Source: Gammaproteobacteria bacterium
GTDB taxonomy: Bacteria; Pseudomonadota; Gammaproteobacteria; Steroidobacterales; Steroidobacteraceae
DNA: 64,000 nt
Reading direction: 5' to 3'
NCBI GenBank assembly: GCA_016874235.1
Contig: VGUJ01000006.1
Span: 1-64,000 of the forward strand
Shown piece after piece: positions 8,085 to 46,076 of the stretch. A program made the translations under genes and the position numbers. How positions within the stretch are numbered: position 1 is the stretch's first letter; each line of letters starts with the position of its first letter. A model generated the notes under the pieces. It made no database searches. It saw only the letters and a program-made list of their open reading frames with translations, and was not told the DNA's origin.

Positions 8085-10760
8085 ATGGTCGACTCACGGC
8101 AGACGGCTGAGCACAGCCGCTTATTTAAAGCTCGCTCTGGCGAGGCGTGGTACCGCTGGGGACCCTATCTGAGTGAGCGCTCATGGGGCACGGTTCGCGA
8201 GGACTACAGCGCGAATGGCGCCGCCTGGAATCACCTCACGCATGATATGGCTCGAAGTAAAGCCTATCGCTGGGGTGAAGATGGTCTGGCGGGCGTGTCG
8301 GATCAGTATCAACTGCTGTGTTTTTCTTTGGTGTTGTGGAATGGGCGTGACCCGATCCTAAAGGAGCGTCCATTTGGATTGATCCCAGCGGAGGGCAATC
8401 ATGGCGAGGATTTGAAGGAGTACTACTTCTATATCGATAGCACTCCGACCCACAGTTACATGAAGTATCTCTTTAAGTATCCCCACGCGGAGTATCCGTA
8501 CGAGTGCTTGGTACGAGAGAACGGAAGTCGTAACGGTCGAGGACCTGAGTTTGAGTTACTCGACACTGGAATCTTTGATCAAGATCGCTACTTCGATGTG
8601 TTCGTCGAATACGCAAAAGCCGACCCAGAAGATCTGTGTATTCGAATCGAGGTCTGTAATCGAGGCTCCGAAGACGCCGATATTCATTTGATACCCCAAT
8701 TATGGTTCCGAAACATCTGGGGTTGGGGTGAGACGCGCAAGCGCCCACCGAATATCAAATTAGGGGCAAAACGCGGCAAACAGATCCGGATGGTCGCCGA
8801 CGATTCCGGGGCCGACGGGTTGACCAATCTACCCTTCAAGTATTCGCTCGGAAAGCGCTATTTTTCCGCCGAAAGCGGGGGGGAAACGCTCTTTACCGAT
8901 AACGAAACAAACGTTGAACGGTTGTATGGCGTCAAGCCTGAGGCTGGGCGCGCGTTTTATAAGGATGCGTTCCATCGCCATATCGTCAACGGCGAGGTTG
9001 GCGCGATCAACGCCGATCAGGAAGGCACCAAGGCGGGAATACATTACCGACGCACGGTACCGGCGCGAGGTTCGGTGGTGCTGCTTTTCCGCTTGTCGGA
9101 TGACGGCAAGGCGTCGCTCGAGGAGGCGTCGGCGGTAGTCGACAAAGCGCGGCGCGAGGCCGATGAGTTCTACAAAACCATCCATCCGAAGGGCGCCACC
9201 GAGGACGAGTGTCGAATTCAGCGACAAGCGTTTGCCGGCATGATGTGGTCGAAGCAAAATTATATTTTCGATGTCGATCTTTGGCTGAAGGGTGACAACC
9301 CGAAGCTCGCGCCGCCTCAGTCGCGAATCGATATCCGAAACAAGCATTGGCGTCATCTCAATTCGATGCGCGTTCTGTCGATGCCAGATAAATGGGAATA
9401 CCCGTGGTTTGCGGCATGGGATCTCGCGTTCCACACGGTCGCCATTGCAATCATCGATGCTGAGTTCGCCAAACAGCAGTTATGGCTGATGTTGTTTGAG
9501 CAGTTTCAGCATCCCAACGGACAGATTCCTGCCTACGAGTGGGAGTTCTCCGACCTCAATCCGCCTGTGCATCCCTGGGCGGTCTGGCGCGTGTACAACA
9601 TGGATCGCGTTCGCTCCGGGGTGGCCGATAGGGCGTTCCTCGAGCGCTGCTTCCATAAATTGCTCATCAACTTTGCTTGGTGGATCAACAAGGTCGACAG
9701 TCGCGGCAACAACGTATTCGAAGGCGGATTCCTTGGGCTCGACAACATCACATTGTTCGATCGATCGGAAAAGCTACCCGGCGGTGCAGTGCTTGAGCAG
9801 TCGGATGCAACCGGATGGATGGGATTGTTCTGTCTCAACATGATGCGTATCGCGCTCGAGCTCGCCAAAGAAAATCAGACCTACGAGAGCTTAGCAACCA
9901 AGTTCTTCCAGCATTACGTCTACATCGGCGCTGCGATGAAGCGTCAGGGTGGGCGCGATCATGATCTCTGGGATGAGACAGACGGTTTCTTCTACGACGT
10001 ATTGCGTTATCCCGATGGGCACTACGAGAAGATTCGGGTTCGTTCCATGGTCGGACTCATCCCGTTGTATGCCGTGGAGCGCTTGGAAACGGAGTGGCTC
10101 AAGCAGTTCCCAGAGTTCACATCCAATCTCAACTGGTTCGTGAACAACCGATCTGAGATCGTAGATCGCTGCATTTCGAAGATTGCTAACCCAGAGGGTG
10201 AAACCCTCGCGATGACGATTGTCGATCGTGCACAGCTTGAGCGGATGCTGCAGTGGTTATGCGATTCGGACGAGTTTCTGTCCGACTACGGCTTACGCAG
10301 CCTCTCAAGGGTCCACCTTGAGCAGCCCTTCAGTCTTGGCGGAAATCAGGTCGGGTACGAGCCGGGCGAGGCTGACTGCAAGATCAAAGGTGGTAACTCG
10401 AATTGGCGAGGGCCGATTTGGTTCCCAACGGCATTTCTCATGATTGAATCTTTGCGCAAGCTCGCCAAGGCGCATGGAAAAGACTTAACCGTCAAGGACA
10501 AGAAAGGGAAAACCTGGACCATCGATGACATTGCGCGCGCGCATGCGAATCGACTGATCGCGGTGTTTGCACGGGATGCGAGTGGTCGACGTCCAGAGTA
10601 CGGAAACATCGAAAAATTCCAGAATGATCCGCATTGGCGTGACTACCTAACGTTCCATGAGTATTTCCATGGCGACACGGGTGTCGGACTTGGTGCGTCC
10701 CATCAAACGGGGTGGACCGGGTTAGTCGCATCGTTGATCGACGAGTGGCGTTCACACTAA
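8085..10760 (+). CDS. GH63-family glucosidase
   Basis: An 891-residue protein without signal peptide. It matches the large bacterial branch of glycoside hydrolase family 63 (mannosyl-oligosaccharide glucosidase type). Recognisable segments are the N-terminal [17 protein letters not shown] (near 25), [18 protein letters not shown] (near 435), which belongs to the (alpha/alpha)6 catalytic barrel, and [20 protein letters not shown] near 765. It probably acts in the cytosol on an alpha-glucoside or glucan-derived oligosaccharide; the substrate cannot be assigned. The glycogen genes on both sides point to alpha-glucan metabolism. It is followed after 32 bases by the dehydrogenase gene on the same strand. 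Confidence 0.88.
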
Positions 10761-10792: not shown

Positions 10793-11599
10793 ATGTCTTA
10801 CAAACCGCTCAAGGGTCAAAAGGCGTTGGTTACCGGCGCAAGTTCAGGTATCGGCGCGGGTGTGGCGATCGCCCTCGGCCAAGCCGGAGCCGACGTGGTG
10901 GTCAACTACGCCGGTAACGTGGCCGGTACGGTGCCTGTGATCGAGGCCATCAAGGCAGCCGGTGGTCGCGCCATCGCAGTGCAGGCCGACGTTTCAGATG
11001 AACCGCAAGTCGAGGCGATGTTCGACAAAATGATGGGCGAGTGGGGCGCGATCGACATCCTCGTGAATAATGCCGGTTTGCAGCAGGACGCGCCGTTCCA
11101 CGAAATGACCTTGGCTCAATGGAACAAGGTCATCAACGTGAATTTGACCGGCATGTTTCTCTGCAGCCGCCGCGCCGTCCGAGAGATGATGAAGCGTGGC
11201 GTTCAGTCCGGAGTCTCTGCGGCTGCCGGTAAAGTGATCTGCATGTCCTCGGTACACGAGGTCATCCCGTGGGCCGGGCACGTCAACTACGCGGCTTCCA
11301 AGGGCGGCGTCAAACTTTTCATGCAAAGTCTTTCACAGGAAGTCGCACCGCTCAAAATACGGGTGAACTCGATTGGCCCGGGTGCGATCGCCACGCCGAT
11401 CAATCGCCCCGCCTGGGAGACGCCCGAGGCGCTCGCCAAGTTGCTCGAACTCATCCCTTATGGCCGAGTCGGACAGCCGACTGATATTGGCAAAGCGGCG
11501 GTTTGGCTGGCCTCGGATGAATCGGATTACGTGAATGGTCAAACCATTTTCGTCTGCGGTGGAATGACTCTTTATCCGGAGTTCGCGGACGGCGGGTGA
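10793..11599 (+). CDS. short-chain dehydrogenase, glucose 1-dehydrogenase-like
   Basis: A 268-residue classical SDR. It has the TGASSGIGAG cofactor motif near residue 14, the NNAG motif near 90, and the Ser/Tyr/Lys catalytic set with YAASKGG near 165. The sequence style is that of glucose 1-dehydrogenases and related sugar SDRs, but the substrate is not certain. The ATG at 10793 has an AGGAG-type ribosome site 8 bases ahead (10780-10784), so it is chosen over an upstream in-frame start within the GH63 gene. It would supply NAD(P)H, and the next gene, 4 bases on, is an NAD(P)-dependent flavoprotein. Confidence 0.88.
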   Translation: MSYKPLKGQKALVTGASSGIGAGVAIALGQAGADVVVNYAGNVAGTVPVIEAIKAAGGRAIAVQADVSDEPQVEAMFDKMMGEWGAIDILVNNAGLQQDAPFHEMTLAQWNKVINVNLTGMFLCSRRAVREMMKRGVQSGVSAAAGKVICMSSVHEVIPWAGHVNYAASKGGVKLFMQSLSQEVAPLKIRVNSIGPGAIATPINRPAWETPEALAKLLELIPYGRVGQPTDIGKAAVWLASDESDYVNGQTIFVCGGMTLYPEFADGG

Positions 11600-11603
11600 G
11601 GTC

Positions 11604-14051
11604 ATGACCAAGGTCGTCATTGCCGTTGTCGGTTCAGGCCCGGGCGGATTGAGCGCTGCAGCCCGGGCTGCCGAGATCGGCGTATCGCATGTGCTGCTTG
11701 AGCAAACGGCTGCTCATGCCAACACGATCCAGCGATACCAGAAAGGCAAGCACGTGATGGCCGAGCCGAATGTGCTGCCGCTGCGTAGTCCACTCGCCTT
11801 CGCCGCCGGAACTCGAGAAAAAATTCTCGATGAGTGGGCTCGAGGTCTTGCCGCGCAGAACGTTAACGTTCGTTACGGTGCGGAGATCGTCGCGATCTCC
11901 GGGGAGAAAGGGAACTTCAATCTCACGCTACAAGACGGTAGTGAAGTTCTCGCTGAGAACGTCATCCTTGGCATCGGGTTGCAAGGTAATCCGCGGCGTC
12001 TCGGCGTTCCTGGAGAGAACTTGCCATGCGTGCAGTACACGCTGGATGACCCGGAGGAGTACCAGGGCGAGACGATCGTCGTCGTCGGTGCGGGTGATGC
12101 GGCCATCGAGAACGCGGTGGCTCTCTCAAAACAGAATACGGTTTATCTGATCAATCGGGCGGGGGAGTTCGCGCGTTGCAAGGACGGCAACTTGACGCTC
12201 ATCCTAAAAACAATAGAGGCGGGAAAGGTTAACTGCCTCTATTCCACCCAGTGCAGTGCGCTCGCCGAGACGCCGGGGGGCGCTAAACCGTACGAGTTGT
12301 CTTTGAAGACTGCAAATGGGCAGATGCAGTTGCCCTGCGATCGAATCATCGCCCGTCTCGGTGCTATTCCGCCGCGCAAGTTTGTTGAGTCCTGCGGAAT
12401 CAAATTCCCCTCGAGCGATCCGACCTCATTGCCGTTGCTATCGGCCAATTACGAATCCAATGTTGCTGGGCTGTACGTCATCGGTGCGCTAGGGGGATAT
12501 CCGCTCATCAAGCAGGCGATGAACCAAGGCTACGAGGTTGTTGAGCACATTCGCGGCGCACCCGTCACGCCAGCTGACGAACCCTTGCTTCAGTCGAAGC
12601 TCGCGGGAATTCCCGGACATCTCTCAGTCTCCGCGACGCTGCAGAGTATGCAAGCGCGGATACCGATTTTTGCGGAGGTCAATCCGCTGATGTTTCGCGA
12701 GCTGATGCTCGGTAGCAGCGTCCATGTTCCGAAGTCAGGCGAGGTGGTGTTCAAAAGAAACGATTACACCAACTCGTTCTACACAATCTTCAGCGGTAGC
12801 GTCGAAATCCAAGTTGACGATAACGATCCAGCTAAGCGCGTGGTGCTCTCGACCGGGCAATTCTTCGGTGAAATGGGATTGCTTTCGGGTCGTCGTCGTA
12901 CCGCTACCGCACTCGCCGGGCGAGACTGTGTACTGATCGAGACGCCGCGTCGGGATGTGTTGAAGTTGTTGAGCTCAGTCGACGCTGCCAAAGCCGTCGT
13001 CGACCATGCCTTTATCGTTCGTGCGATTCAGAGAGGGTTTGCGCCGCAAGCCACCACCGATGAGTTACTGCCTATTGCTGCCAAGTCGAAGCTCAATCGC
13101 TTTCGGGCGGGGCAAGTTCTGTTTACCGAGGGTGACGAGGCTGATTCGTTGCATCTCATTCGAAGCGGCTCCGTATCGGTGTTGCGATCGATCGGCGCAA
13201 GAGAGGTAGTGACCTCGTACGTGGCGGCCGGCAACTATGTCGGCGAAATGGGTCTACTCGGGAACACGCGGCGTAGTGCGACGGTGCGAGCAACGGTGGC
13301 CACGGAGACCATTAGTGTAAATGCTGCGACGTTCGACGAACTACTCCAGAAAAATCCGCGCTTGCGAAAAGAGCTGGAGGCGACTGTTCGACAGCGCGTG
13401 GCCAGTAACACCCATCTGCAAGGGCAGGACCACGCAGGCGAATTGATTTCGTTCCTTCTAAAGCAAGGTCTGGGTGAGGCCACCGACGTACTGCTGATCG
13501 ATGAGTCGCTGTGTGTCGGATGCGATAACTGTGAGCGCGCCTGTGCGGCGACTCATGGCGGCACGTCTCGCCTCGATCGCGCAGCCGGCCCGACGTTTGC
13601 GAACGTTCATGTGCCGACGTCTTGTCGCCACTGCGAAGATCCGCATTGCATGAAGGACTGTCCGCCCGATGCGATTCGCCGTTCGCCGAATGGTGAAGTA
13701 TTCGTCGGCGATAATTGTATAGGCTGTGGAAACTGCGAGCGTAATTGTCCTTATGGCGTAATTCACATGTCGGGACCGCCGCTCGAGCAGCCCTCGCTAA
13801 TGTCTTGGCTGATGTTCGGCGGGAACAAAGAGAGTGTTTATGGCGAGTTGCAGGGGCTTGGTCGCGCTCATCACCACGAGCATGCTCCGACCGATGCGCC
13901 AAAGGCTGTCAAAAAAGCGGTCAAGTGCGATATGTGTAAGGGTCAGGATGGCGGACCTGCATGCGTTCGCGCGTGTCCGACAGGTGCGGCGCTGCGCGTC
14001 AGCCCGGAGGAGTTTGTTACGTTCGTCAAGGAGGAGGCCTCGCGGTTCTAA
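11604..14051 (+). CDS. FAD/NAD(P) oxidoreductase - 2x CNB - four-cluster ferredoxin fusion
   Basis: An 815-residue cytosolic fusion. Residues 1-330 are a two-dinucleotide-fold flavoprotein of the thioredoxin-reductase/YpdA type (VVGSGPGGLSAAA near 8, VVVGAGDAAIEN near 157) without a CxxC redox pair. Residues 345-465 and 485-600 are two CNB domains, each with an intact cassette (FFGEMGLLSGRRRTATA and YVGEMGLLGNTRRSATV). Residues 635-795 are a ferredoxin domain with four Cys groups (CVGCDNCERAC, CRHCEDPHCMKDC, CIGCGNCERNC, CDMCKG...CVRAC). These give 16 Cys for four [4Fe-4S] clusters, as in DmsB/HybA-type subunits. I infer electron transfer between NAD(P)H and the membrane cytochrome b encoded 2 bases downstream, with cyclic-nucleotide control. 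I know of no characterised protein with this order. Confidence 0.92.
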   Translation: MTKVVIAVVGSGPGGLSAAARAAEIGVSHVLLEQTAAHANTIQRYQKGKHVMAEPNVLPLRSPLAFAAGTREKILDEWARGLAAQNVNVRYGAEIVAISGEKGNFNLTLQDGSEVLAENVILGIGLQGNPRRLGVPGENLPCVQYTLDDPEEYQGETIVVVGAGDAAIENAVALSKQNTVYLINRAGEFARCKDGNLTLILKTIEAGKVNCLYSTQCSALAETPGGAKPYELSLKTANGQMQLPCDRIIARLGAIPPRKFVESCGIKFPSSDPTSLPLLSANYESNVAGLYVIGALGGYPLIKQAMNQGYEVVEHIRGAPVTPADEPLLQSKLAGIPGHLSVSATLQSMQARIPIFAEVNPLMFRELMLGSSVHVPKSGEVVFKRNDYTNSFYTIFSGSVEIQVDDNDPAKRVVLSTGQFFGEMGLLSGRRRTATALAGRDCVLIETPRRDVLKLLSSVDAAKAVVDHAFIVRAIQRGFAPQATTDELLPIAAKSKLNRFRAGQVLFTEGDEADSLHLIRSGSVSVLRSIGAREVVTSYVAAGNYVGEMGLLGNTRRSATVRATVATETISVNAATFDELLQKNPRLRKELEATVRQRVASNTHLQGQDHAGELISFLLKQGLGEATDVLLIDESLCVGCDNCERACAATHGGTSRLDRAAGPTFANVHVPTSCRHCEDPHCMKDCPPDAIRRSPNGEVFVGDNCIGCGNCERNCPYGVIHMSGPPLEQPSLMSWLMFGGNKESVYGELQGLGRAHHHEHAPTDAPKAVKKAVKCDMCKGQDGGPACVRACPTGAALRVSPEEFVTFVKEEASRF

Positions 14052-14053
14052 GC

Positions 14054-14932
14054 ATGCACGAGTCACTGCTCAATTATGCGAATCGACGTTATCTTCGGGT
14101 GTCTCTGTGGCTCTGCGGTCTCTCCGTGGCGCTGTATGTCTGGCACGACCCTCTATCGCCCCCCAACGGTGGCACCTGGCTCGGATATACACTCGGGGGC
14201 ATCGGTGCTGCGCTTACCTTGTGGTTGACCGCTCTGGGAGTTAGAAAGCGGGCATATTCATCGGCGATGGGCACCCTGCGGGGCTGGACCAGCGCACACG
14301 TTTACCTGGGTCTCTCGCTTCTGTTGATCTCTACATTACACAGTGGATTCCAGTTCGGTTGGAATTTGCACACGCTTTGTTATGTATTGATGGTCATCGT
14401 GATCGTCAGCGGAGTCGTCGGGGTGGTGGCTTACCAGCGTTACCCCCAGCTGATGTCGGCAAATCGCGCCGGCAGCAAGCCTGACCGTCTGCTTGAGGAA
14501 ATTCAGGACCTCGACCAGCGCGCGTTGCGTATCGCACGCGACATGCCACGGCGTTTCGCTGCTCTGCTGCGGGCGAATCGTGAGGGCACCGTGCTCGGTG
14601 GTAGTACGCGCAACATTTTGTCCGGCCGGGACAGCTCTGTGCTGATGGTTCCCTCGACTGAAGGAGCCGTTAGCTCGCCAAACAGTGGACAGTCTGCGGC
14701 GCTGGCATGGCTCGGGGACGAGCTTGCACGCAGTACGGATGGTGAGCTCAGTCGGCGCATTGGCGATCTGCTAAGCCTATTGGCGGAGCGGAGAAATTTA
14801 CTTCGTCGGCTGTGTAGAGATGCGCAGATCAGAGGTTGGCTCGATATCTGGCTGTACATACATGTACCTGTAACCTTGGCTTTGCTCGGAACACTCGTCG
14901 CGCACGTCGTGAGCGTGTTTCTCTACTGGTAA
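14054..14932 (+). CDS. integral membrane di-heme cytochrome b-like protein
   Basis: A 292-residue protein with four probable membrane segments before about residue 130 and one at the C-terminus. Two segments carry His pairs at the same spacing, His82/His96 and His270/His284 (i, i+14), which is how four-helix cytochromes b bind two stacked hemes. A further His lies near residue 112. Between the segments is a soluble insert of about 130 residues, rich in charged residues, that I do not recognise. It is squeezed between the FeS flavoprotein and the FHA-cytochrome genes (2 and 4 bases apart). This suggests it passes electrons across the inner membrane. Confidence 0.78.
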   Translation: MHESLLNYANRRYLRVSLWLCGLSVALYVWHDPLSPPNGGTWLGYTLGGIGAALTLWLTALGVRKRAYSSAMGTLRGWTSAHVYLGLSLLLISTLHSGFQFGWNLHTLCYVLMVIVIVSGVVGVVAYQRYPQLMSANRAGSKPDRLLEEIQDLDQRALRIARDMPRRFAALLRANREGTVLGGSTRNILSGRDSSVLMVPSTEGAVSSPNSGQSAALAWLGDELARSTDGELSRRIGDLLSLLAERRNLLRRLCRDAQIRGWLDIWLYIHVPVTLALLGTLVAHVVSVFLYW

Positions 14933-14936
14933 TCCG

Positions 14937-16652
14937 ATGCGGTTCTTAATTCGTTCGTTAGAGACGGAAAAAGCGGGTGGCTTGCGCACGCAAGAGAGGG
15001 CGGTCGAGAGCGATTCGCTGTCCATTGGGCGAGCCACTGATCAGAATATCCAGATCAACGATCCGCGAATCGATTTGCAGCACGCACGTTTGAGTCGATC
15101 CGGTAGCGAGCTGCAACTCACGTGCACGCCTCCTGCGCAGGTCGAGATCAACGGGCGGTTGCAGCGTAGCGCCGTATTGAGAGTGGGTGACGAGATTTCG
15201 CTCGGTCCGTCGCTGATCAAGGTGGTCGAGAGTCCCGTCGGCTATGACGTGACCCTGACAATCGAGCGAGATATCCGAGAAAGTGTGGCTGTCGACGATG
15301 GGCCGCTTCTAAAGTTTTCGATGTCTCTCGCCGAAGTGGGTTGGCGAAAGCGTCCTTGGGCGTGGGCGGGAATCAGTGTCTCCCTCGTACTCGGACTCGT
15401 TCTGCCCTGGGTCATGGTGGGTCGCGGCGATGCGTCCATCGAATGGTTGCGACAGAGCGTTTTGCCGAGCGATATGCAGTGGACTTCCGGGGCGCTACAT
15501 TCTGCGCACGGTAATCTCGAGGTTGCTTGCGAGGCCTGTCATGAGCAACCGTTCCGCCGAGTTCGCAATGAGCAATGCCTCGATTGTCACGCGACGACTC
15601 TTCATCAGCACGTTCCTGCGGATCATCCTGCTGCGGCAGACATGACTTCCGATCGTTGCACGACCTGTCACGTCGAGCATGATGAACCGTCAAATCTTGT
15701 CCAGCTCGACACGCGAATTTGCTCGGATTGTCATGCCGAACCCCAGAGTCATGGCGCTGGACCCAAAGTGCTGCCGGTGACGGATTTTGTTTCTCAGCAT
15801 CCGGATTTTCAGGTCAGTTTACTGACGGCGCCCGATTGGAAAGTGACGAGGGCCCGTTTAGGCGAATCAGAAATCGTTGAAAAATCGAATCTCGAGTTTA
15901 CGCATGCTGCGCACCTCAATCCGAAGGGCATCAAGGCTCCGCAGGGTGAAGTCGTCATGGAGTGTGCTGATTGCCACACGCCGACTGAGAGCGGTACGAG
16001 CTTCAAGCCAATTGAGATGGAGCAGCACTGCGGCTCATGCCACACGCTGGGTTTCGATCCAGCTGAGCCGAAGCGTACGGTGCCGCATGGCGAGCCGGCA
16101 CTGGTCATGCAGACGCTGATTGATCATTACAGTCGGCGTTTTCTCGGCGGGTATAGCGATACGGTAGCGGCTGCAAGCGGTGCGGCACCACCCGGAGCTT
16201 CGTTGAGTGCGTCAGCTCGCGCTCGCGTGCTCGGGAGCGCCAAGCAGCGCGCGAATCAGGTGGCGGCAGATATCTTCGAGCGTCGGATGTGCGCGGATTG
16301 TCATACCGTCACACGCGGAGGGTCCGCCGCAGAGCCTCTGTGGAGCGTCGCGCCGGTCAAGTTGACGCAAACGTTCATGCCCAAAGCGCAATTTGATCAT
16401 TCCGCGCACGCGACGGGCAAGGCGACGTGCGAGACCTGTCACGCTGCGACGGATTCAAAAGTCGCCAGCGACGTTTTGATGCCGCAGATCAAAGTATGTC
16501 GTGACTGCCATGGCGGTGAGATCGGCACTGAGGGTGGACAGGCTCGTATCGCAAGCCCTTGCGCGTCGTGTCACGTTTATCACGACAAGCAAGAGCCGCT
16601 GTGGATTCCTGTCATGAAGAAGGTGATTCGAGAGGCGGTGGTTAGCCAATGA
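14937..16652 (+). CDS. FHA domain - membrane segment - ten-heme cytochrome c fusion
   Basis: A 571-residue protein with no cleavable signal. Residues about 20-100 form a forkhead-associated domain (SIGRATDQNIQINDP, later EINGRL and RVGDEISLG). The box that binds phosphothreonine, normally SRxH, reads DLQH. One membrane segment follows at about 141-162 (WAWAGISVSLVLGLVLPWVMVG). Residues 199-547 carry ten CxxCH sites: CEACH, CLDCH, CTTCH, CSDCH, CADCH, CGSCH, CADCH, CETCH, CRDCH and CASCH. The topology implied is FHA in the cytosol and hemes in the periplasm. It probably accepts electrons from the cytochrome b encoded just upstream. Its stop overlaps the next start by 4 bases. Confidence 0.92.
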   Translation: MRFLIRSLETEKAGGLRTQERAVESDSLSIGRATDQNIQINDPRIDLQHARLSRSGSELQLTCTPPAQVEINGRLQRSAVLRVGDEISLGPSLIKVVESPVGYDVTLTIERDIRESVAVDDGPLLKFSMSLAEVGWRKRPWAWAGISVSLVLGLVLPWVMVGRGDASIEWLRQSVLPSDMQWTSGALHSAHGNLEVACEACHEQPFRRVRNEQCLDCHATTLHQHVPADHPAAADMTSDRCTTCHVEHDEPSNLVQLDTRICSDCHAEPQSHGAGPKVLPVTDFVSQHPDFQVSLLTAPDWKVTRARLGESEIVEKSNLEFTHAAHLNPKGIKAPQGEVVMECADCHTPTESGTSFKPIEMEQHCGSCHTLGFDPAEPKRTVPHGEPALVMQTLIDHYSRRFLGGYSDTVAAASGAAPPGASLSASARARVLGSAKQRANQVAADIFERRMCADCHTVTRGGSAAEPLWSVAPVKLTQTFMPKAQFDHSAHATGKATCETCHAATDSKVASDVLMPQIKVCRDCHGGEIGTEGGQARIASPCASCHVYHDKQEPLWIPVMKKVIREAVVSQ

Positions 16653-18646
16653 GACGCCTGGGGTTTATGGCACTCTGCGCCGTGTTGGTTGCATCGTGTG
16701 GCGGTGGCGGCTCGGAGGCGCCGAGCTCTGGAGTCAGTAGTGGCGCGGTTCCACCCTCCAGTACGGCTTCCTGTGACGGGAGCTGCGCGAACGTCAGCTC
16801 TTTTTTGGCTGTCAGTGACGTTGAATCCGTCATCGCACGTGGTGTTGCTGAGGCGCAGGCGAGAGGCGTCAAGGCAACCATTGCCGTAGTCGATCGGGTC
16901 GGTAATGTGCTTGCGGTGTTCCGCATGTCTGGCGCGCTTGAGGACGTCACGATGCGTACCAGCGACGTGTCGGCGTCGGCGCTGAGCGGAGGCCTCGAAA
17001 ACGTCGAAGTGATTCCCGCGACGGCGGCTGCGATTGCAAAGGCCGTCACCGGCGCCTATCTGTCAAGTGAAGGTAATGCCTTCAGCACTCGAACGGCCAG
17101 TCAAATCATTCAATCACATTTCAATCCTGGCGAACTGCTGACTCCGGGCGGTCCGTTGTTCGGTGTTCAGTTCAGTCAGCTGCCGTGCTCGGATGTTGCG
17201 TTGCGTTTCACGACTGCTGAGGGTGATGCCGGACCGAAGCGTTCGCCTCTCGGACTTGCAGGCGACCCGGGTGGATTCCCTCTCTACCGATCCGGAACGC
17301 CGATCGGTGGCGTAGGGGTAGTCGTCGATCCTGTTTATGGCATTGATCGTAATGTTCTCGATGTCGATAACGATGTCGACGAGGCGGTGGCGTTCGCCGC
17401 CACGGGCTCGCTGGCTGCGCCGGAGGACCGTCGCGCAGATCGAATTACGGCAGATGGTAAGACTCTCAGGTTCAGCGATTTTCGTGTCGAGGACCTACGC
17501 TCCCGAATCGACTCGCCCCCGACGTTCGCATCGCTGCTTGGTAGCGTTGGGCAGCTCATTGCAGTACCTGGCTACAACGTTGCGGCGGTCAGAGCGGGGA
17601 CAGCTTTTGGGCAGGCACGCTCCGGTATTCGGGCCGATAGTCAGGACTATGCCAATCTCGATGCGTTCGTTCTGGTTGATGCGACGGACAACGAGCGTTT
17701 TCGTCCGCGCGCAGGCACTGACGGTGCTGCGGCGCTGACATCCGTCGAGGTGCGATCCATTCTCTCGAGTGCCTTGCGAATTGCGAATCGTAGTCGAGCG
17801 CAGATACGTCGTCCGCTCGATACGCCGGCGCGTGTCTCGATCACCGTCGTAGATTCGCGGGGCGAGATTTTGGGGCTCGTAAGAACTCGCGATGCGCCCG
17901 TGTTCGGTATCGATGTGTCGGTACAGAAGGCGCGCGGCGCGGCGTTTTTGTCTTCGCGTACCTCGGCAGAGAGATTGAATGCGCTTCCTCCGGCCGTTTA
18001 TCTCGATCGCGTCTTGGTACGGTTGCGAGAAGAGTCGCCGGCGCAGTACGTCCCTACCACGCGGATTTTTCTTGGCTTGCCAAATGCCTTGGCGGATGGG
18101 ATGACTGCGTTTTCCGCGCGCGCGATCGGCAATCTCGCACGCCCAAATTATCCGGACGGGGTTGATGGAAATCCATTTGGTCCGCTCTCGCGAGCGCCGG
18201 GGCAATGGAGTCCGCTCAACACGGGATTACAAATGGATCTCGTTCATAACGCTGTCATTCAGCACGTTGCGTTTGTTCGTGGTTTGACGCCCGATACCCC
18301 GCGTAATTGCAGTGGAGTAGGCGGTTTCGATCGCGGCTTTGTCGTAAATGGTGCCGTTCGCGGTCTAGCCAATGGCATACAAATTTTTCCCGGCGCTGTG
18401 CCGATCTATCGCGGTGAGCAGCTGATCGGGGCGATCGGAGTTTCTGGGGACGGCATCGATCAGGATGACATGGTCGCTTTCCTTGGTGTCGCACGTGCCG
18501 GCTTATCCGGAAACCCGCCACATAACGCGCCGACAAATCGTCGAGCGGATCAATTAGTTCCTCGTGGTGCGCGCCTGCGCTACGTCAGCTGTCCGCAAGC
18601 GCCGTTCCTGGACTCCAACGAACAGGAGCCCTGCAGTGGTCTTTGA
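16649..18646 (+). CDS. lipoprotein with two HbpS/GlcG-like (DUF336) domains
   Basis: A 665-residue protein with a clear lipobox (LVASCGGGG, Cys at about 18), so it is a lipid-anchored envelope protein. Two regions resemble the HbpS/GlcG fold: about 50-240 (ARGVKATIAVVDRVGNVLAV) and about 365-600 (ARVSITVVDSRGEILGLVR). HbpS proteins bind heme or sense redox state in other bacteria. Here the family fits a heme-rich neighbourhood, but binding is not shown. The gene overlaps the FHA-cytochrome gene by 4 bases and the barrel gene by 11 bases, so all three are surely co-expressed. Confidence 0.78.
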   Translation: MRRLGFMALCAVLVASCGGGGSEAPSSGVSSGAVPPSSTASCDGSCANVSSFLAVSDVESVIARGVAEAQARGVKATIAVVDRVGNVLAVFRMSGALEDVTMRTSDVSASALSGGLENVEVIPATAAAIAKAVTGAYLSSEGNAFSTRTASQIIQSHFNPGELLTPGGPLFGVQFSQLPCSDVALRFTTAEGDAGPKRSPLGLAGDPGGFPLYRSGTPIGGVGVVVDPVYGIDRNVLDVDNDVDEAVAFAATGSLAAPEDRRADRITADGKTLRFSDFRVEDLRSRIDSPPTFASLLGSVGQLIAVPGYNVAAVRAGTAFGQARSGIRADSQDYANLDAFVLVDATDNERFRPRAGTDGAAALTSVEVRSILSSALRIANRSRAQIRRPLDTPARVSITVVDSRGEILGLVRTRDAPVFGIDVSVQKARGAAFLSSRTSAERLNALPPAVYLDRVLVRLREESPAQYVPTTRIFLGLPNALADGMTAFSARAIGNLARPNYPDGVDGNPFGPLSRAPGQWSPLNTGLQMDLVHNAVIQHVAFVRGLTPDTPRNCSGVGGFDRGFVVNGAVRGLANGIQIFPGAVPIYRGEQLIGAIGVSGDGIDQDDMVAFLGVARAGLSGNPPHNAPTNRRADQLVPRGARLRYVSCPQAPFLDSNEQEPCSGL

Positions 18647-20405
18647 TCGAACGTGGTTACCTGCGCTGCTCGGATGGTTGCTTGCAGGGTCCGCTCTCGC
18701 GAGCGAGGCGTGTCCACCGTCGCAGCCGACCGAGTCGGGCCGACGTAGCCCCACGATACCGGTTATCCCGTATGAGCCGGAGCCTTGTGATCCATCGCGA
18801 ATTTCCCCAGCTCCGATAGAGGAGATGGGATCTTTACAAGGGTTCCCGGATCGGTGGCGTATCGTTGAGGCGATTGGCATTAAAGAAAACTTGCTCGACC
18901 CTTACAATGGCTACAATCGCTTAAAGGGCGATCGACCGATGCTCGGCGAAGACTGGTACTTGGCGTTCATCGGGATTTCCGATTCAGTCTTTGAGCCGCG
19001 TTCGTTTCCTCTGCCGGTCGGTGGTCCAGTTACGGACAGATCGGGATCCCTCAATACGTTTGGCAGTCCGAAGACGGAGATCTTAGCGCAGACGTTCATT
19101 CTTGAGACTGTGCTCTACCAAGGCAATACGACGTTCAAACCGCCCGATTGGGAATTCCGATTCACGCCAGCATTTAACGTAACACGAGTCTCTGCTGACG
19201 AGCGTGGTTTGCTGCGAGCGCCCGCAGATGCTTCTAAGGTTCGCTACGACTCGGCGTTTGGCTTGCAGGCTGCGTTCGTGGATCGCCATTTGCGAAATGT
19301 GTCGCCTAACTACGACTTCGACAGTCTCCGCGTCGGAATACAGCCCTTCACTTCTGACTTCCGTGGCTTTTTGCTCAACGATGCGATGTTTGGTGTGCGT
19401 CTATTTGGCATCCGAGCAAGCAATCGTTATCAATACAACCTTGCGTGGTTCCGTCGCCTAGACAAAGATACGAATAGCGGTCTGAACGACGTGTTCTCTC
19501 GCGGTCTCGCATCGTTTCGAGACGATGATGTCTTCGTCGCTAACCTTTATATACAAGACTGGCCGACTCTCGGATTTTTCACCCAAGGCACGGTGATTCA
19601 TAACCGTAATCGCGAAGGCGGACAAATTCAGTACGACGATAACGGTATCATTCAGCGACCTGTGTCGCTCGGCGTCGAGCGATCGGGTGATTACGATGTC
19701 ACCTATCTCGGTGTCTCCGGTGACGGTCATATCGCCGGAGTTAACCTAACGACTTCCGCGTACTACGCGACTGGAGATGCCGAACGTGGTACCTTCGTCG
19801 ACCGCCCGCAAAAGATCCGAGCGGGGTTCGTCGCAGCCGAGATCTCCAAGGATTTCTCATGGATCCGCGCCCGCGCGTCGCTCGCGTGGGGATCTGCGGA
19901 TTCAGATCCGTTTGACGATCGAGGCGAAGGATTTGACGCGATATTCGAAAATCCTCTGTTTGCGGGTGCGGATACCAGTTTTTGGATACGCGAACCCGTT
20001 CCGCTGATTGGTGGTGGACGTGTGACACTGACCGGGCGTAACGGGTTGCTGAACTCGCTGAGATCGTCGAAGGAGTTTGGTCAGTCGAACTTCGCGAATC
20101 CGGGGCTGAAGCTTGTGGGTGTTGGAGCAGACTTTGATCTGACGCCAACCTTGCGGGTGAGCACCAACGTCAATTGGCTGCAATTTGTGGATACGGAAAC
20201 CTTGCGGGTTGCGCGTGCGCAAGGGGATATCGACAAGCAGATCGGTATTGACGCCTCAATCGCGTTGATCTGGCGACCGACGGCCATTCAAAACGTCGTG
20301 GGTCGTCTGTCTGTCGCCACGTTGGTGCCGGGGGACGGTTATCGCGATCTCTTTGAAGACGACATCGCTTACGCCGTTCTCGGCAATCTCGTTCTTACTT
20401 ACTGA
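18636..20405 (+). CDS. probable outer-membrane beta-barrel protein
   Basis: A 589-residue exported protein: N-terminal VVFDRTW, a hydrophobic core LLGWLLAG, then a cleavage-like ALA-SEA. The mature part has alternating hydrophobic and polar strands rich in Tyr, Phe and Asp (for instance FDSLRVGIQPFTSDFRGFLL). It ends in Tyr (VLGNLVLTY), as Bam-assembled barrels do. I choose the GTG at 18636, 11 bases inside the upstream gene, because CAGGAG precedes it at proper distance and a signal peptide follows directly. It lies between cytochrome genes, so it may be the porin of a porin-cytochrome conduit. I see no direct similarity to MtrB or PioB. Confidence 0.75.
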   Translation: MVFDRTWLPALLGWLLAGSALASEACPPSQPTESGRRSPTIPVIPYEPEPCDPSRISPAPIEEMGSLQGFPDRWRIVEAIGIKENLLDPYNGYNRLKGDRPMLGEDWYLAFIGISDSVFEPRSFPLPVGGPVTDRSGSLNTFGSPKTEILAQTFILETVLYQGNTTFKPPDWEFRFTPAFNVTRVSADERGLLRAPADASKVRYDSAFGLQAAFVDRHLRNVSPNYDFDSLRVGIQPFTSDFRGFLLNDAMFGVRLFGIRASNRYQYNLAWFRRLDKDTNSGLNDVFSRGLASFRDDDVFVANLYIQDWPTLGFFTQGTVIHNRNREGGQIQYDDNGIIQRPVSLGVERSGDYDVTYLGVSGDGHIAGVNLTTSAYYATGDAERGTFVDRPQKIRAGFVAAEISKDFSWIRARASLAWGSADSDPFDDRGEGFDAIFENPLFAGADTSFWIREPVPLIGGGRVTLTGRNGLLNSLRSSKEFGQSNFANPGLKLVGVGADFDLTPTLRVSTNVNWLQFVDTETLRVARAQGDIDKQIGIDASIALIWRPTAIQNVVGRLSVATLVPGDGYRDLFEDDIAYAVLGNLVLTY

Positions 20406-20416
20406 TTATCGAACTC

Positions 20417-23400
20417 ATGAAAAAGCTCGTCGCTTCACTCTTCACCTTATCCGGACTGATGCTTTTGCCGGGCTCGGTCGATTTCGCGACCTCTGCGGAG
20501 GGTCTCAAGGCAGTCGAGCGGATTTACTCGGTCTCACCGCCTGCGCCGGCAAAGCAGACCTTGGAGGAGGCCGCGGCGAAGAGTGTGGGGTGTAACGACT
20601 GCCACACGAAGACCGATCAGCCGACCATGCATGCTAATCCGGGTGTCGTACTCGGTTGCACGGACTGTCACGGCGGCTCAGCCAATGTGCGTTGGATTGG
20701 TCCTGATGATCGCGACACGCAACGGAACAACCGAAAGTACGCCGAGGTGCGCGATGCGGCGCATGTGCTGCCTAAGTATCCTTCCGCATGGCATCACCCA
20801 TCGAGTGCTAACCCAGAGCGTACTTACGCTTTGCTCAACAAAGAGGCGAACGAGTTCATCCGGTTCGTCAATCCTGGCGACTATCGCGCCGCCGATGCGG
20901 CGTGCGGTGCGTGTCACGCCCGAACCATCGAAGATGCCAAGCGTAGTTTGATGGCGACCGCCACGATGTTCTGGGGCGGAGCGGCCTATAACAATGGCTT
21001 ACTTCCTTTCAAGAATTATATTCTCGGTGAGAGCTACACCAGAGAGGGTGTCGCGGCGATCCTCGAAGGGGCGAAGACAACGGCAGAGCAACGTGATAAG
21101 CATGAGCTCGTCGAGCGAATCTACCCATTGCCGCGTTGGGAGAACCTGCCGCCCGCCGATATCTTCCGCGCCTTCGAGCGCGGAGGACGCAACATCACCA
21201 ACCTGTTCCCCGAAACAGGTATCCCTAATTCTTTGGGTCAAATACAGCGTCTTGAGGAGCCAGGTCGCCCTGACTTCAAGCAGTCGAATCGCGGGCCCGG
21301 TACTGGTGGTCGGATCGCGGTGCCGGTACTCAATATCCACAAAACTCGGTTGAACGACCCCTTGATGTGGTTCATGGGTACTAACGATAACCCTGGCGAT
21401 TTCCGCTCGTCGGGTTGTACGAGCTGTCATGTGGTGTACGCGAACGATCGCGATCCAAGACACTCAGGTCCTTACGCGCAATTTGGGCACGATGGAAAAT
21501 CGCAGACCTTAGATCCTACGATTCCGAAAGATCGCAGCGGGCATCCGTTAGCCCACTCATTCACGCGGTCGATCCCAACGAGCCAGTGCATGATTTGTCA
21601 CATGCACCAGCCAAACATGTTCATCAACTCGTTCCTTGGCTACACGATGTGGGATTACGAGTCAGATGCTCCCCACATGTGGCCGGAAGAGCAGCAGTTT
21701 CCGACGCCGGAGAAAATCCGACAGGTGCTCGATCGTAATCCGGAAGGCGCTGCGCCGCGCGGGAAGTGGGGGGATCTTGAGTTTCTCAAGACTGTCAGCG
21801 AGCTCAATCCGAAGTTGAAGGATACCCAGTTCGCGGACTATCACGGGCACGGGTGGAATTTCCGGGCGATTCACAAGCGTGACCGAGAAGGCAATCTGCT
21901 CGATGCCGACGGTAACATCATCGCTAACGACGACCCGCAGAAGTGGAAAAAGACGGTGCAGATGTCTTCGATTCACGTGGATGTCGGCATGCACTGCGTC
22001 GACTGTCACTTTGCGCAGGACTCTCATGGCAATGGCTATCTGCACGGCTCTGTTGCTGCAGCCGTCGAGATTGACTGCAAGGACTGTCATGGTACGACGG
22101 CGGCTGTGGCCAATCTCAGAACATCCGGACCTGCGGCGCCGAAGTCCGGGACTAATCTGGGTCTTATTCGTAACCCCGATGGAAAGCCTCGCTTCGAGTG
22201 GCGTGGGAATACGCTGATTCAAAGATCAGCGGTGACAGCGGGTCTCGAGTGGGAGGTGTCCCAGGTCAAGGATACGGTGACGCCCGGTAACGCGCACTAC
22301 AACGCGAAGGCGGCGCGAGCCAAGACGATGGCGAAGGATTCCAAGAAGCAAAACTTCGGGCCGGATATTCCGTGGGAGATGCTTGCGCACAACGACGACA
22401 AAATGGAGTGCTACACCTGTCACACGCCCTGGACGACAAGTTGTGGCGGTTGTCATTTGCCGATCGAGGCGAATGCGAAGACGGAGCGCCATCGTTACGA
22501 GGGCGGTGAGACGCGTAATTTTGCGACTTATAATCCACAGGTCTTGCGTGAAGACATTTTCATGCTTGGTTGGCGCGGGGCGAGTGAAGGAGGAAAGATG
22601 GCGCCGGTGCGCTCGTCGTCGGCCCTCGTGTTGTCTTCGACCAACTCCAACCGAGAGCGTATTTACATCCAGCAGCCGCCGATCGCCGCGTCGGGCTACA
22701 GCTCGCAGGCAATGAATCCTCACTATCCGCACACCGAGCGCAAGACGGAAACGAAGACCTGCAGTGACTGTCATCTTGCGAAAGAGGGAGATAACAACGC
22801 GATCATCGCGCAGACACTGGGATTCGGTACCCAGTTCATCAATTTTAATGGTCTAAACGCTTGGGTCGGCACGGAGAAGGGCGTCGCTGCAATCGAGGTG
22901 ACGGAGTGGGATGAGCCGCAGGCCGTCATCGGTAGTTACCTTCATCGATACGCCTACCCCAAGTGGTACGCCGATCATCTCAGTCGGGACCGCGAATTAC
23001 AGCGCGCCAGCGCGTTGAGCGGCGGACTTGCCGGCTGCGTGCAATTGCGAGGCGAATACGTGTTCTCTGCTGAGGGGAAACGCGGTATGCGCGTGTTGGA
23101 TGCAGCGAGCATCGCCAACAAAGGCATCAGCCAGAAATTGATCAGCGCACCGTTCTCGCCTCTCGGTCACAACACCCAGGTGCGGACGACCAATGCGACG
23201 TGCGTTGCGTTAGCGACCACTCAACCCGTGCACCCGCCGCGCAATGAGGGCGATCGCATGCGTAAGGCGAATCTTGAGCAACCTTTCCTGCCGATCTATA
23301 ACTTTGCAGTGATCACCGACTCGGTCGAAGGGCTCGTGTTAGTCGATATCAATACGTTGGCTGATGGCGAGTTCAGGAACAATTTCCTGCGGCGCTTCTT

Positions 23401-24184
23401 GACTTGGAATCCGAGCGGGAAGTTGACTGGTGCGCGGCATTTGACCATCGCCGGGAATCTGGCTTACGTCGTCACGGACAGGTCGGTTGTCATTACAGAC
23501 TTGTCTACTCCGAGTCTGCCAAAGATCGTTTCGGAGATTGCGTTCGACTCGCCGCGTGCCGTGGCCCTTCAGTTCCGTTATCTCTTCGTGACGACGGCGC
23601 GAGGATTCGAGGTGGTCGATATTACGGCGCCATCGCGTCCGCGCAAGTTGCCAGACGCGACGGTACCGTTAAATGGTGCAGGGGGTTTCACTGTCGCAAG
23701 GACCTACGCTTACGTCGCTAATGGACGTGAGGGTCTGGCCATCATCGACGTGAAAAAACCGCAAGCGGCGCGCTTGTTCCGGAAATGGGGCGCCGACGGG
23801 AATCTTGTCGACTCCCGCGACGTCATGATCGCGTCGACCAACGCCTCTCTTTTCGCCTACGTCGCAGACGGAAAGGGTGGCTTGAAAGTAATGCAACTGA
23901 CGAGCCCCTCTTCACAGCCGAATTTCTACGGGTTCAGTCCGGAACCGCGACCGGAGTTGATCGCCCACAAGGCGACAAGATCGGCTGCGCTGAGTCTGTC
24001 TCGGCCATTGGAGCGCGATCGTGCGGTTGACGAAAGCGGTGGGCAAGTTGCTGTCTTTGGTCGCCGCGGTTCGCGTCCGTTCAATTTGCAGGAGATGCAG
24101 CGAATGTATCTCAGCCAGGATGGCGAGCCCTGGTACGTTGAGGACAACCCAGCCGTGCAGCAGGCGCGGAGGAATCAAAGATGA
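20417..24184 (+). CDS. ten-heme cytochrome c with C-terminal LVIVD propeller
   Basis: A 1255-residue exported protein with signal MKKLVASLFTLSGLMLLPG. Ten CxxCH sites lie between about residues 58 and 786: CNDCH, CTDCH, CGACH, CTSCH, CMICH, CVDCH, CKDCH, CYTCH, CGGCH and CSDCH. Scattered His residues could be distal ligands. Residues about 960-1180 contain LVIVD-type repeats (AYVVTDRSVVITDLS, YLFVTTARGFEVVDI, YAYVANGREGLAIIDV, FAYVADGKGGLKVM), which form a beta propeller in other surface proteins. It is probably periplasmic or cell-surface, with the propeller as a docking or catalytic module. It lies 11 bases after the barrel gene and overlaps the next cytochrome gene by 4 bases. Confidence 0.9.
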   Translation: MKKLVASLFTLSGLMLLPGSVDFATSAEGLKAVERIYSVSPPAPAKQTLEEAAAKSVGCNDCHTKTDQPTMHANPGVVLGCTDCHGGSANVRWIGPDDRDTQRNNRKYAEVRDAAHVLPKYPSAWHHPSSANPERTYALLNKEANEFIRFVNPGDYRAADAACGACHARTIEDAKRSLMATATMFWGGAAYNNGLLPFKNYILGESYTREGVAAILEGAKTTAEQRDKHELVERIYPLPRWENLPPADIFRAFERGGRNITNLFPETGIPNSLGQIQRLEEPGRPDFKQSNRGPGTGGRIAVPVLNIHKTRLNDPLMWFMGTNDNPGDFRSSGCTSCHVVYANDRDPRHSGPYAQFGHDGKSQTLDPTIPKDRSGHPLAHSFTRSIPTSQCMICHMHQPNMFINSFLGYTMWDYESDAPHMWPEEQQFPTPEKIRQVLDRNPEGAAPRGKWGDLEFLKTVSELNPKLKDTQFADYHGHGWNFRAIHKRDREGNLLDADGNIIANDDPQKWKKTVQMSSIHVDVGMHCVDCHFAQDSHGNGYLHGSVAAAVEIDCKDCHGTTAAVANLRTSGPAAPKSGTNLGLIRNPDGKPRFEWRGNTLIQRSAVTAGLEWEVSQVKDTVTPGNAHYNAKAARAKTMAKDSKKQNFGPDIPWEMLAHNDDKMECYTCHTPWTTSCGGCHLPIEANAKTERHRYEGGETRNFATYNPQVLREDIFMLGWRGASEGGKMAPVRSSSALVLSSTNSNRERIYIQQPPIAASGYSSQAMNPHYPHTERKTETKTCSDCHLAKEGDNNAIIAQTLGFGTQFINFNGLNAWVGTEKGVAAIEVTEWDEPQAVIGSYLHRYAYPKWYADHLSRDRELQRASALSGGLAGCVQLRGEYVFSAEGKRGMRVLDAASIANKGISQKLISAPFSPLGHNTQVRTTNATCVALATTQPVHPPRNEGDRMRKANLEQPFLPIYNFAVITDSVEGLVLVDINTLADGEFRNNFLRRFLTWNPSGKLTGARHLTIAGNLAYVVTDRSVVITDLSTPSLPKIVSEIAFDSPRAVALQFRYLFVTTARGFEVVDITAPSRPRKLPDATVPLNGAGGFTVARTYAYVANGREGLAIIDVKKPQAARLFRKWGADGNLVDSRDVMIASTNASLFAYVADGKGGLKVMQLTSPSSQPNFYGFSPEPRPELIAHKATRSAALSLSRPLERDRAVDESGGQVAVFGRRGSRPFNLQEMQRMYLSQDGEPWYVEDNPAVQQARRNQR

Positions 24185-25467
24185 GTGTTAAGTCGATCCA
24201 GTTGAAGTGGGCAGCCTTAGGTCTTGCACTGTTGTCCACGCTCGGCGCGGTCGCAGAGGAGGCCAAGCGACGTCATGAGGGCGTTGCAACCTGTGCTTCA
24301 TCGCTGTGCCACGGTTCGAGCCAGCCACTCAAGACTTACGAGAGCGCCCTTCAAAACGAATATACGACTTGGTCGCAATTTGATCCGCATTCCAACGCGT
24401 ACAAGGTGTTACTCAACAAGCAGTCCCAGGAGATCGCTCGTCGGATGGGTATCGGCCCGGCTCATGAGGCGCCAGCGTGTCTTGCCTGCCATTCGGATGC
24501 GGTCCCTGCTGCGCAGCGAGGCGTCAAATTCCAATTGGATGACGGAGTCGGCTGTGAGAGTTGTCACGGTGGCTCGGAAAAGTGGCTGGCGACGCACTAT
24601 CAGGTGCCGAAGATTCCGCGAAGTGAGAATCTGGCCCGAGGGCTCGTCGCACTCGAGAACCCCGATACGCTCGCGGGCACCTGTCTCGCGTGTCATGTCG
24701 GCGACAAAGATCGCTATGCGAATCATCGAATGATGGCAGCCGGTCACCCACGAATTGTCTTCGAGCTCGATACTTATCTCGAGCTTTGGCGTACCAGTGG
24801 TGGGCGGGAGCATTATCGTAAGAGCGCTCAAATAGCGCATGTTGCCTTATGGGCCAAGGGACTCATCGAATCGTCGCGTCGGCAACTTGATCTGATCGAC
24901 CGTCACGGCGCTGGACGACTTGGACCCATCCCGGATTTCGGTATCTACGCCTGTCACTCCTGCCATCGGGATCTTCGACTGTCCGCGTTTGGAGGCTCGA
25001 ACTCTTCGCTTGGCGGGCCGGGCGACCTTCGATGGCAGGATGCGCATCTGCTCGTTCTTCAACAGGTCTCTCAAGCTCTTCGGTTGCAATCTTCGAAGCC
25101 GCTTGACCGGGCGATAATCGGATTACAGCGTTCGGCGAATGGCGATGTGGCCTCGTTAAAGCTTGCCCTTGCGTCCACTCGCGACGCGCTGCTGGTCACA
25201 GAAAGGGAGCTTAAAGGACGTAATTGGAGTACCGCTGAGATGAACCTCGTGGTCCAGGCGCTGATTGACGCATCTCTACGCGGCGGATTCCCCGATCCAG
25301 CCGCCGCCGAGCAAGCGGCGATGGGTCTTGTCGTCATGCTGGCCGGCTTGCAGCTAGATCGTGGCAAGCGTGCGGAGATCGACCGGCTATTCGATGATTT
25401 GCGTGATGACAACGCCTTCGATCAAAGACGGTTCGTGAAGTGGATGTCTGTGCTCGGCGCACGCTGA
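24181..25467 (+). CDS. c554-like multiheme cytochrome c
   Basis: A 428-residue exported cytochrome with a signal ending ...AVAEE near residue 25. Four normal sites are present (CLACH, CESCH, CLACH, CHSCH), plus an N-terminal CASSLCH, a CX4CH spacing. That gives up to five c-type hemes within the first ~260 residues. The arrangement, including AGHPRIVFELD after the fourth site, is that of the cytochrome c554-like family. The C-terminal 150 residues are helical and heme-free. As a soluble periplasmic carrier it could shuttle electrons between the inner-membrane decaheme protein and the outer-membrane partners. The glgB start codon follows after 6 bases. Confidence 0.88.
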   Translation: MSVKSIQLKWAALGLALLSTLGAVAEEAKRRHEGVATCASSLCHGSSQPLKTYESALQNEYTTWSQFDPHSNAYKVLLNKQSQEIARRMGIGPAHEAPACLACHSDAVPAAQRGVKFQLDDGVGCESCHGGSEKWLATHYQVPKIPRSENLARGLVALENPDTLAGTCLACHVGDKDRYANHRMMAAGHPRIVFELDTYLELWRTSGGREHYRKSAQIAHVALWAKGLIESSRRQLDLIDRHGAGRLGPIPDFGIYACHSCHRDLRLSAFGGSNSSLGGPGDLRWQDAHLLVLQQVSQALRLQSSKPLDRAIIGLQRSANGDVASLKLALASTRDALLVTERELKGRNWSTAEMNLVVQALIDASLRGGFPDPAAAEQAAMGLVVMLAGLQLDRGKRAEIDRLFDDLRDDNAFDQRRFVKWMSVLGAR

Positions 25468-25473
25468 TCTTTG

Positions 25474-45366: not shown

Positions 45367-45408
45367 AATTTGGCCTAATTGAGGCCCTCGATTGTGTCGG
45401 AGATATCC

Positions 45409-46071: not shown

Positions 46072-46076
46072 TCTCC

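Follow-up and report, generated by a model that had tools for sequence, protein, structure and literature searches.

A conserved seven-gene core

The first 64,000 nucleotides of contig VGUJ01000006.1 (the window), from the Steroidobacteraceae genome GCA_016874235.1, contain a run of seven genes, P2 to P8, at 11604–25467 on the + strand. We read it as a porin-cytochrome pathway driven by NAD(P)H, set by a cyclic nucleotide and reducing an acceptor outside the cell, and we give this reading a probability of about 0.5. The seven genes are a conserved core, in which an inner half like that of the putative porin-cytochrome complex PCC4, compared here by its published description, is combined with a different outer half. 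The genes are as follows.

11604–14051, + strand: P2, an NAD(P)H/FAD oxidoreductase domain (TrxR/YpdA-like) with two cyclic-nucleotide-binding (CNB) domains and an Fe-S domain (Pfam, residue conservation)
14054–14932, + strand: P3, a five-helix inner-membrane protein with WX3HX13H in transmembrane helices 3 and 5 and SGXXG in helix 4 (alignments, structure model)
14937–16652, + strand: P4, a predicted cytosolic FHA domain, one transmembrane helix and ten predicted periplasmic CXXCH motifs (Pfam, alignment, motif count)
16649–18646, + strand: P5, an HbpS-like lipoprotein with three matched stretches (Pfam HbpS-like, 73.5 bits, cut-off 25)
18636–20405, + strand: P6, a predicted outer-membrane barrel of AlgE-type fold with about 18 strands by our own count (model, Foldseek)
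20417–24184, + strand: P7, ten CXXCH motifs and C-terminal LVIVD-type propeller repeats (Pfam; signal sequence read by eye)
24181–25467, + strand: P8, a c554-like cytochrome with four CXXCH motifs and one CX4CH (Pfam Cytochrome_C554, 39.8 bits, cut-off 20.8)

A first-pass annotation, made from the sequence without database searches, had described eight co-directional genes spaced by -11 to +11 bases, counting one more gene, P1, ahead of P2. All eight open reading frames (ORFs) were confirmed at 10793–25467 on the + strand. Starts were set by comparison with homologues, which moved that of P3 from 13961 to 14054 and that of P6 from 18564 to about 18636; the spacings from P1 to P8, thus corrected, are in order +4, +2, +4, -4, -11, +11 and -4 bases, within the range first described. 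Pfam and NCBIfam calls also agree with the earlier domain descriptions of the window proteins, except that P1, a soluble short-chain dehydrogenase (SDR), falls outside the core.

Conservation was surveyed in 100 loci, the best 80 of at least 530 stretches from named genomes plus 20 fetched regions. The scan of named genomes used a P2 alignment (E ≤ 1e-3), and its stretches are relatives of P2, not whole modules. Some genomes are present twice among the 100 loci (e.g. L089/L180, L128/L164 and L095/L181), so the counts are not independent. Matches above threshold were found for P2 in 98 loci, P3 in 92, P4 in 93, P5 in 80, P6 in 77, P7 in 72 and P8 in 22; the counts for P7 and P8 are too low, since many loci break off at that point. 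The annotation had supposed that the genes of a single conduit would stay together in other genomes, and they do, in distant as well as related ones: 90 of the 100 loci have P2-P3-P4 in order on a single strand, 72 have the series from P2 to P6 and 64 that from P2 to P7. For the best 80 of the at least 530 stretches alone, the figures are 72 for P2-P3-P4 and 57 for P2 to P7. This grouping exceeds chance. Eighteen fetched regions all carry P2 to P5 consecutively (18/18), with P6 in 17, P7 in 14 and P8 in 12; absences of these three fall mostly at contig or region ends, and for one region (L032, genome G034) P7 lies on a separate contig.

Within the order, P4 was found in 51 of 396 genomes (E ≤ 1e-20, source genome included) and P7 in 57 of 396 (E ≤ 1e-100), among them all 51 that bear P4; five of the six genomes with P7 only are less than 90% complete. 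At class level a P4 profile matched 16 of 369 genomes, and at phylum level 15 of 398 (E ≤ 1e-30, source genome included in both), and in a set of 60 genomes P4 was matched in 26 (E ≤ 0.001, source genome included), the four weakest matches being partial. Named hosts among the best 80 stretches include Steroidobacteraceae, Nevskiaceae, Lysobacterales, Woeseiaceae, Solimonas, Alcanivorax, Colwellia, Dokdonella, Tahibacter, Ferrovibrio, Oceanibacterium and others; the names Klebsiella, Bordetella and Marinimicrobia on metagenome-assembled genomes are probably mislabels.

Gene order divides the core into two blocks, A (P2-P3-P4) and B (P5-P6-P7); P8 goes with either and stands between them in L168 and L172. 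A followed by B is the usual order, rotated (4-5-6-7-8-2) in L140 and L160 and with the blocks divergent in L174, L175 and L176, so that the two remain close through rearrangement. Block A occurs without block B within the stretch in L132, L155, L165, L169, L170 and L173. An extra gene was noted between P4 and P5 in L129, L134, L138, L149 and L159, three of them alphaproteobacterial by name; that of L159 has a biotin/lipoyl-type domain at its C-terminus.

The inner half

P2 has the Pfam content Pyr_redox, two cNMP_binding and Fer4, and also matches PF13247 (33.9 bits, cut-off 26.2). Its 16 Fe-S cysteines are kept in 97 of 97 proteins, a pattern from which four [4Fe-4S] clusters would be expected. 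The tested glycines of both dinucleotide motifs are likewise present in 97/97, the last position of the second motif being Ala in 82 and Gly in 15. The two CNB domains separate the flavin part from the Fe-S part in the sequence. Each retains the Glu and Arg of the phosphate-binding cassette, residues that we take to act in phosphate binding: Glu in 97/97 and Arg in 96/97 for CNB1, and both in 96/97 for CNB2. Cyclic-nucleotide binding by these domains is likely under selection, the conserved residues marking a potential to bind.

In P3, W78/H82/H96, S119-G120/G123 and W266/H270/H284 are invariant among 26 aligned proteins, and five histidines (H82, H96, H106, H270 and H284) are kept in 86 of 86; two b hemes would be expected. 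The structure model has a pLDDT of 86.2, helices were assigned from the model and by eye, and the long loop would be cytosolic by the positive-inside pattern, also read by eye. P3 matched no Pfam family. Against the PDB its model gave no Foldseek match at E ≤ 0.001, and its sequence gave only weak matches, at E 0.11 or worse and mostly to stathmin.

Pfam assigns FHA and Cytochrome_C7/c3 domains to P4, whose ten CXXCH motifs are all kept in 88 of 89 complete homologues. The charge pattern, read by eye, places the FHA domain in the cytosol; a single transmembrane helix follows it, so the hemes would face the periplasm. Both the CNB and the FHA domains had been taken for sensors in the first-pass annotation. 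For the CNB domains a signalling role still stands, given the retained Glu and Arg and the nearby cyclases described below. We rejected the FHA domain as a phospho-sensor, its pocket being degenerate. Among 90 proteins the GR pair (Arg in 86), His (85) and Asn (73) are retained, but the position of the phosphothreonine-binding Ser is Ser in only 3, and the following, normally basic position is Leu in 77. Since Ser is so rarely kept, phosphothreonine reading is unlikely to be under selection, and the domain may instead serve docking.

The outer half

A lipobox-like motif occurs in 59 of 77 P5 homologues. The P6 model, built on 27 sequences, has a pLDDT of 70.9 (middling confidence); its top Foldseek match is AlgE (8pz4; E 6e-17, TM-score 0.61 by target and 0.49 by query), and its fold also resembles the Occ/Opd porins, which are specific channels. 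The C-terminal residue is Tyr or Phe in 68 of 68 homologues, a signal sequence was read by eye, and no Pfam family matched. P6 is predicted to be a β-barrel outer-membrane protein; what the annotation had called a probable barrel is thus backed by structure prediction and by the AlgE match.

P7 matches LVIVD and Cytochrom_c3/c7 in Pfam. All ten CXXCH motifs of the window protein recur in 18 of 18 complete homologues. Its identity to 11 homologues, which come from more than one class, is 58–67%, and across the 12 sequences hundreds of positions are invariant. The sequences of P6 and P7 gave no matches in the PDB. Four CXXCH motifs are present in 21 of 22 complete P8 ORFs; the odd match (L095, with none) is probably spurious.

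Comparison with known systems

PCC4 is described as comprising a porin, multiheme cytochromes of 4, 5 and 10 hemes and a five-helix membrane protein with WX3HX13H on helices 3 and 5 and SGXXG on helix 4; in its subgroup II, a PF13247 Fe-S gene lies upstream of the membrane protein (He et al. 2017, PMC5566968). By this description, P3 has the same five helices with the same placement of both motifs, P2 with its PF13247 match lies upstream of P3 across a 2-base gap, and the module has a putative porin together with one 10-heme and one 4-heme cytochrome. It differs in heme numbers, 10, 10 and 4 (plus one CX4CH) here against 4, 5 and 10 there, and in the HbpS-like lipoprotein, AlgE-type barrel and decaheme-propeller protein of block B, which are not in the PCC4 description. 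The terms "cyclic nucleotide" and "FHA" do not occur in the main text of He et al. Since P2 and P3 fit the description and the outer half differs, we do not regard the module as a new category; as far as the published description goes, it is a PCC4-like block A with a different block B.

Three loci carry an outer half of another kind. In L155 (3778–8593), L132 (3676–8483) and L161 (3804–8530) we found 5- and 4-CXXCH cytochromes and a conserved putative porin of 535–553 amino acids ending in Phe. P8 and P2-P3 are present in all three, and P4 in L155 and L132; L161 ends before P4. L155 and L132 thus have cytochromes with 5, 4, 4 and 10 CXXCH and an ORF of 545–553 amino acids ending in Phe beside the same block A, and the P2 of L155 also has two CNB domains. 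The putative porin of L155 matches P6 weakly (E 0.046). Set against PCC4 as described, this outer half looks like PCC4 itself.

With MtrCAB, MtoAB and PioAB the module shares a barrel and decaheme cytochromes; the proposed electron source here is NAD(P)H, not quinol. Scores for the MtrA family TIGR03508 (P4 25.9 and P8 16.3 bits, cut-off 192.2) and for OmcA/MtrC TIGR03507 (P8 15.1 bits, cut-off 209.3) fell far short, P7 matched neither model at E ≤ 0.01, and the Pfam MtrC/MtrF domain stayed under its cut-off of 30 (P7 15.9, P8 20.8). A stretch of P7 matches ExtM of the Geobacter Ext conduits (NF040943), at 64 bits against a cut-off of 800; we know of no LVIVD propeller, CNB or FHA domain in those conduits. 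NADPH oxidases and ferric reductases resemble P3 in having HX13H on helices 3 and 5 and a cytosolic flavin partner (pattern as given in PMC5566968); P3 differs from this family (FRD, PF01794) in its five helices and in its lack of a Pfam or PDB fold match. A ferric-reductase fold for P3 was rejected, as there was no Foldseek match at E ≤ 0.001, which leaves only the motif argument for this likeness.

The annotation knew of nothing like this arrangement. That holds for the CNB domains, no report of which in conduit electron carriers was found in the open-licence literature. It does not hold for the inner half, which fits PCC4, nor for P4: a 10-heme "Forkhead-associated protein" (cluster 403), which agrees with P4 in domain name and heme count as far as a table entry allows comparison, is present in 27 of 87 iron-oxidiser genomes (PMC10734462, Table 1).

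Cyclases near the module

Neighbour clustering (nine short loci of L082–L181 omitted; L026, L030 and L032 added) showed a cyclase, a TPR/SH3 protein and a FecR protein beside P2 in one group of loci. The three cyclases tested (L091, L166 and L167) all have CHASE2 and Guanylate_cyc domains by Pfam, and eight further ORFs belong to this CHASE2-cyclase cluster by sequence; Pfam also found FecR in L113 and SH3/TPR in L181. Nine aligned CHASE2-cyclases retain the Asp, Lys, Asn and Arg that we take to be catalytic. Their genes take three positions relative to the module: some precede P2, that of L181 follows P8, and that of L167 lies on the opposite strand in the interval from P2 to P3. A cluster ORF lies upstream of P2 in 7 of the 50 loci having at least 6 kb there, in L126 on the other strand. 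One genome (G510: L166, L167) has the module twice, each copy adjoined by its own CHASE2-cyclase, TPR and FecR-like genes; P2 was not seen in the L166 stretch.

Of the order's 51 genomes with P4, 27 have, on the same contig and no more than 20 kb away, a PF00211 match; uniform placement would give 1.63, in a comparison uncorrected for kinship. At least one such case occurs in 10 of 13 genera by our own count. Same-strand placement of the nearest cyclase match is seen in 24 of the 27. The match of G056, one of the 27, is a fragment where a contig ends (E 1.1e-4). In 18 of the 27 genomes the match precedes P4 by 7.4–9.1 kb, on the strand of P4, and is mostly part of an ORF of 716–814 amino acids; from length and place we infer that all 18 are CHASE2-cyclases. 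A downstream match, 12–14 kb away and again on the same strand, is present in G051 (L181, of the CHASE2 cluster), G065 and G088.

Two further features of the window bear on cyclic nucleotides.

1531–2673, + strand: a protein with a class III nucleotidyl cyclase domain, the sole PF00211 match in the source genome
6835–7938, + strand: an aquaporin (MIP)-CNB fusion (Pfam), a neighbour and not part of the core

The PF00211 match of the window cyclase spans 2053–2565, 9 kb upstream. A class I cyclase (PF01295) was not found in the source genome, and three of that genome's four CNB matches lie within the window. The aquaporin-CNB gene lies upstream of the module in L037 and L083, and most other stretches are too short to include it; as it is not at the sister locus L082, we rejected it as a module part. 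A metallophosphoesterase gene adjoins the module in five loci of one family (f226) of another class, and the two tested resemble SpdA and CpdA, under the curated cut-offs.

Neighbouring genes and host genome

10793–11599, + strand: P1, a glucose-1-dehydrogenase-like SDR, a lineage-specific neighbour and not core (NCBIfam score, locus comparison)

The top-scoring model for P1 is glucose-1-dehydrogenase (298.6 bits, under the cut-off of 420). It adjoins P2 in 5 of 18 fetched regions; in one more (L023) the contig stops inside P2. The annotation had made it the first gene of the conduit. Being beside the module in the closest relatives only, it was rejected as first electron carrier.

The + strand gene run extends beyond both ends of the eight genes: an ORF that we read as glucosidase-like ends 32 bases 5' of P1, and one that we read as GlgB-like begins 3 bases 3' of P8. 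In the closest relatives only, the module sits inside an apparent glycogen/glucosidase locus (3984–10760 and 25471–27678), whose flanks we take to be glgA, glgC, a GH63-like gene and the SDR, then glgB. These surroundings might supply NAD(P)H via glucose oxidation. Farther off, 45379–51747 holds a run resembling coenzyme F420 synthesis and use, which seems unusual for a proteobacterium of this kind; its genes read as an NpdG-like reductase, CofE-like, CofD-like, a CofC+FbiC(CofGH)-like fusion of 980 amino acids and a luciferase-like oxidoreductase. The source genome (1.8 Mb, 95% complete, 27 contigs) has a single P4 and a heme-copper oxidase match.

Electron flow and its alternatives

In the pathway that we propose, hydride from NAD(P)H would reduce the FAD of P2, and electrons would pass to its Fe-S clusters, cross the inner membrane over the two b hemes of P3 and enter the periplasm through P4, held by its one-helix anchor. 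P8 would relay them from P4 to P7, which would work at the outer membrane together with the barrel P6 and the lipoprotein P5; an outside acceptor would be reduced at P7/P6. Because the CNB pair lies between the flavin and Fe-S parts of P2, a ligand could gate the first electron step: cAMP or cGMP, made by class III cyclases often encoded near the module, would open or close it.

Several observations weigh against this. Support comes from sequence and structure models. Residues of a CNB pocket are a potential to bind, not binding itself. P6 has about 18 strands, and the placement of a cytochrome inside the barrel, or contact between the two, would be conjectural. Whole genomes were searched for P7 in 20 selected cases having block A or P2: 9 contain it and 11 gave no match (E ≤ 1e-50), although in L119 P5 and the start of P6 reach the contig end; block B is therefore probably dispensable outside this order. 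No PF00211 match lies within 20 kb in 24 of the 51 P4-bearing genomes, and G256 and G355 have their closest same-contig match more than 300 kb off. The window cyclase lacks the Lys and Asn of the CHASE2-cyclases, which makes its activity doubtful.

One alternative is a pathway that is real but free of cyclic-nucleotide control, its CNB domains being structural and the cyclase genes inherited neighbours. Only 27 of the 51 genomes have a cyclase within 20 kb, an ORF of the CHASE2-cyclase cluster lies upstream of P2 in 7 of 50 loci, and the window's cyclase is non-canonical, all of which favours such a pathway; near-invariant Glu and Arg in both CNB domains and cyclases adjoining the module in three arrangements speak for control, and we find its absence somewhat unlikely. 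P7 might also be a substrate-specific surface or periplasmic reductase fed by P2-P3-P4-P8, an enzyme and not a wire, with P6 as channel for substrate or product. The close conservation of P7 across more than one class, the likeness of P6 to the specific channels AlgE and Occ/Opd, and the possibility that propeller and HbpS-like parts bind ligands would suit an enzyme. A dedicated barrel beside multiheme proteins is, on the other hand, a hallmark of conduits, and the ten CXXCH motifs in all 18 complete P7 homologues suggest long-range conduction; we consider the enzyme unlikely.

The same parts could also run in reverse, oxidising an outside donor such as Fe(II) or Mn(II) and passing electrons to the quinone pool or NAD(P)+. 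For donors of this type to reduce NAD(P)+ is energetically uphill, and several hosts carry names such as Dokdonella, Tahibacter, Solimonas and Alcanivorax, genera known as aerobic heterotrophs; both count against inward flow, as does the NAD(P)H-FAD domain retained in P2. For it are the direction proposed by He et al. for PCC4, which is inward and so opposite to ours, and the match of P3 motifs to a PCC4 membrane protein that is possibly quinone-active in their account (PMC5566968, as described there), together with the 10-heme forkhead-associated protein of the iron-oxidiser genomes (PMC10734462, table entry). On balance, reverse flow appears quite unlikely.

Implications

If the outward, cyclic-nucleotide-set pathway is right in all its parts, it may be the first cyclic-nucleotide-gated trans-envelope pathway: an NAD(P)H-driven surface output whose flavin-to-Fe-S step would be switched directly by the cAMP or cGMP that a co-inherited CHASE2-cyclase makes, with a common inner half and an interchangeable outer half of propeller or PCC4 type. 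We put this forward tentatively, as a possibility that falls short of an even chance. Known conduits are regarded as governed by gene expression and substrate supply. Should second messengers act on the carriers directly, surface electron flow would be switchable within seconds. The module is widespread, and its hosts include genera known as aerobic heterotrophs, where extracellular electron transfer is not expected.

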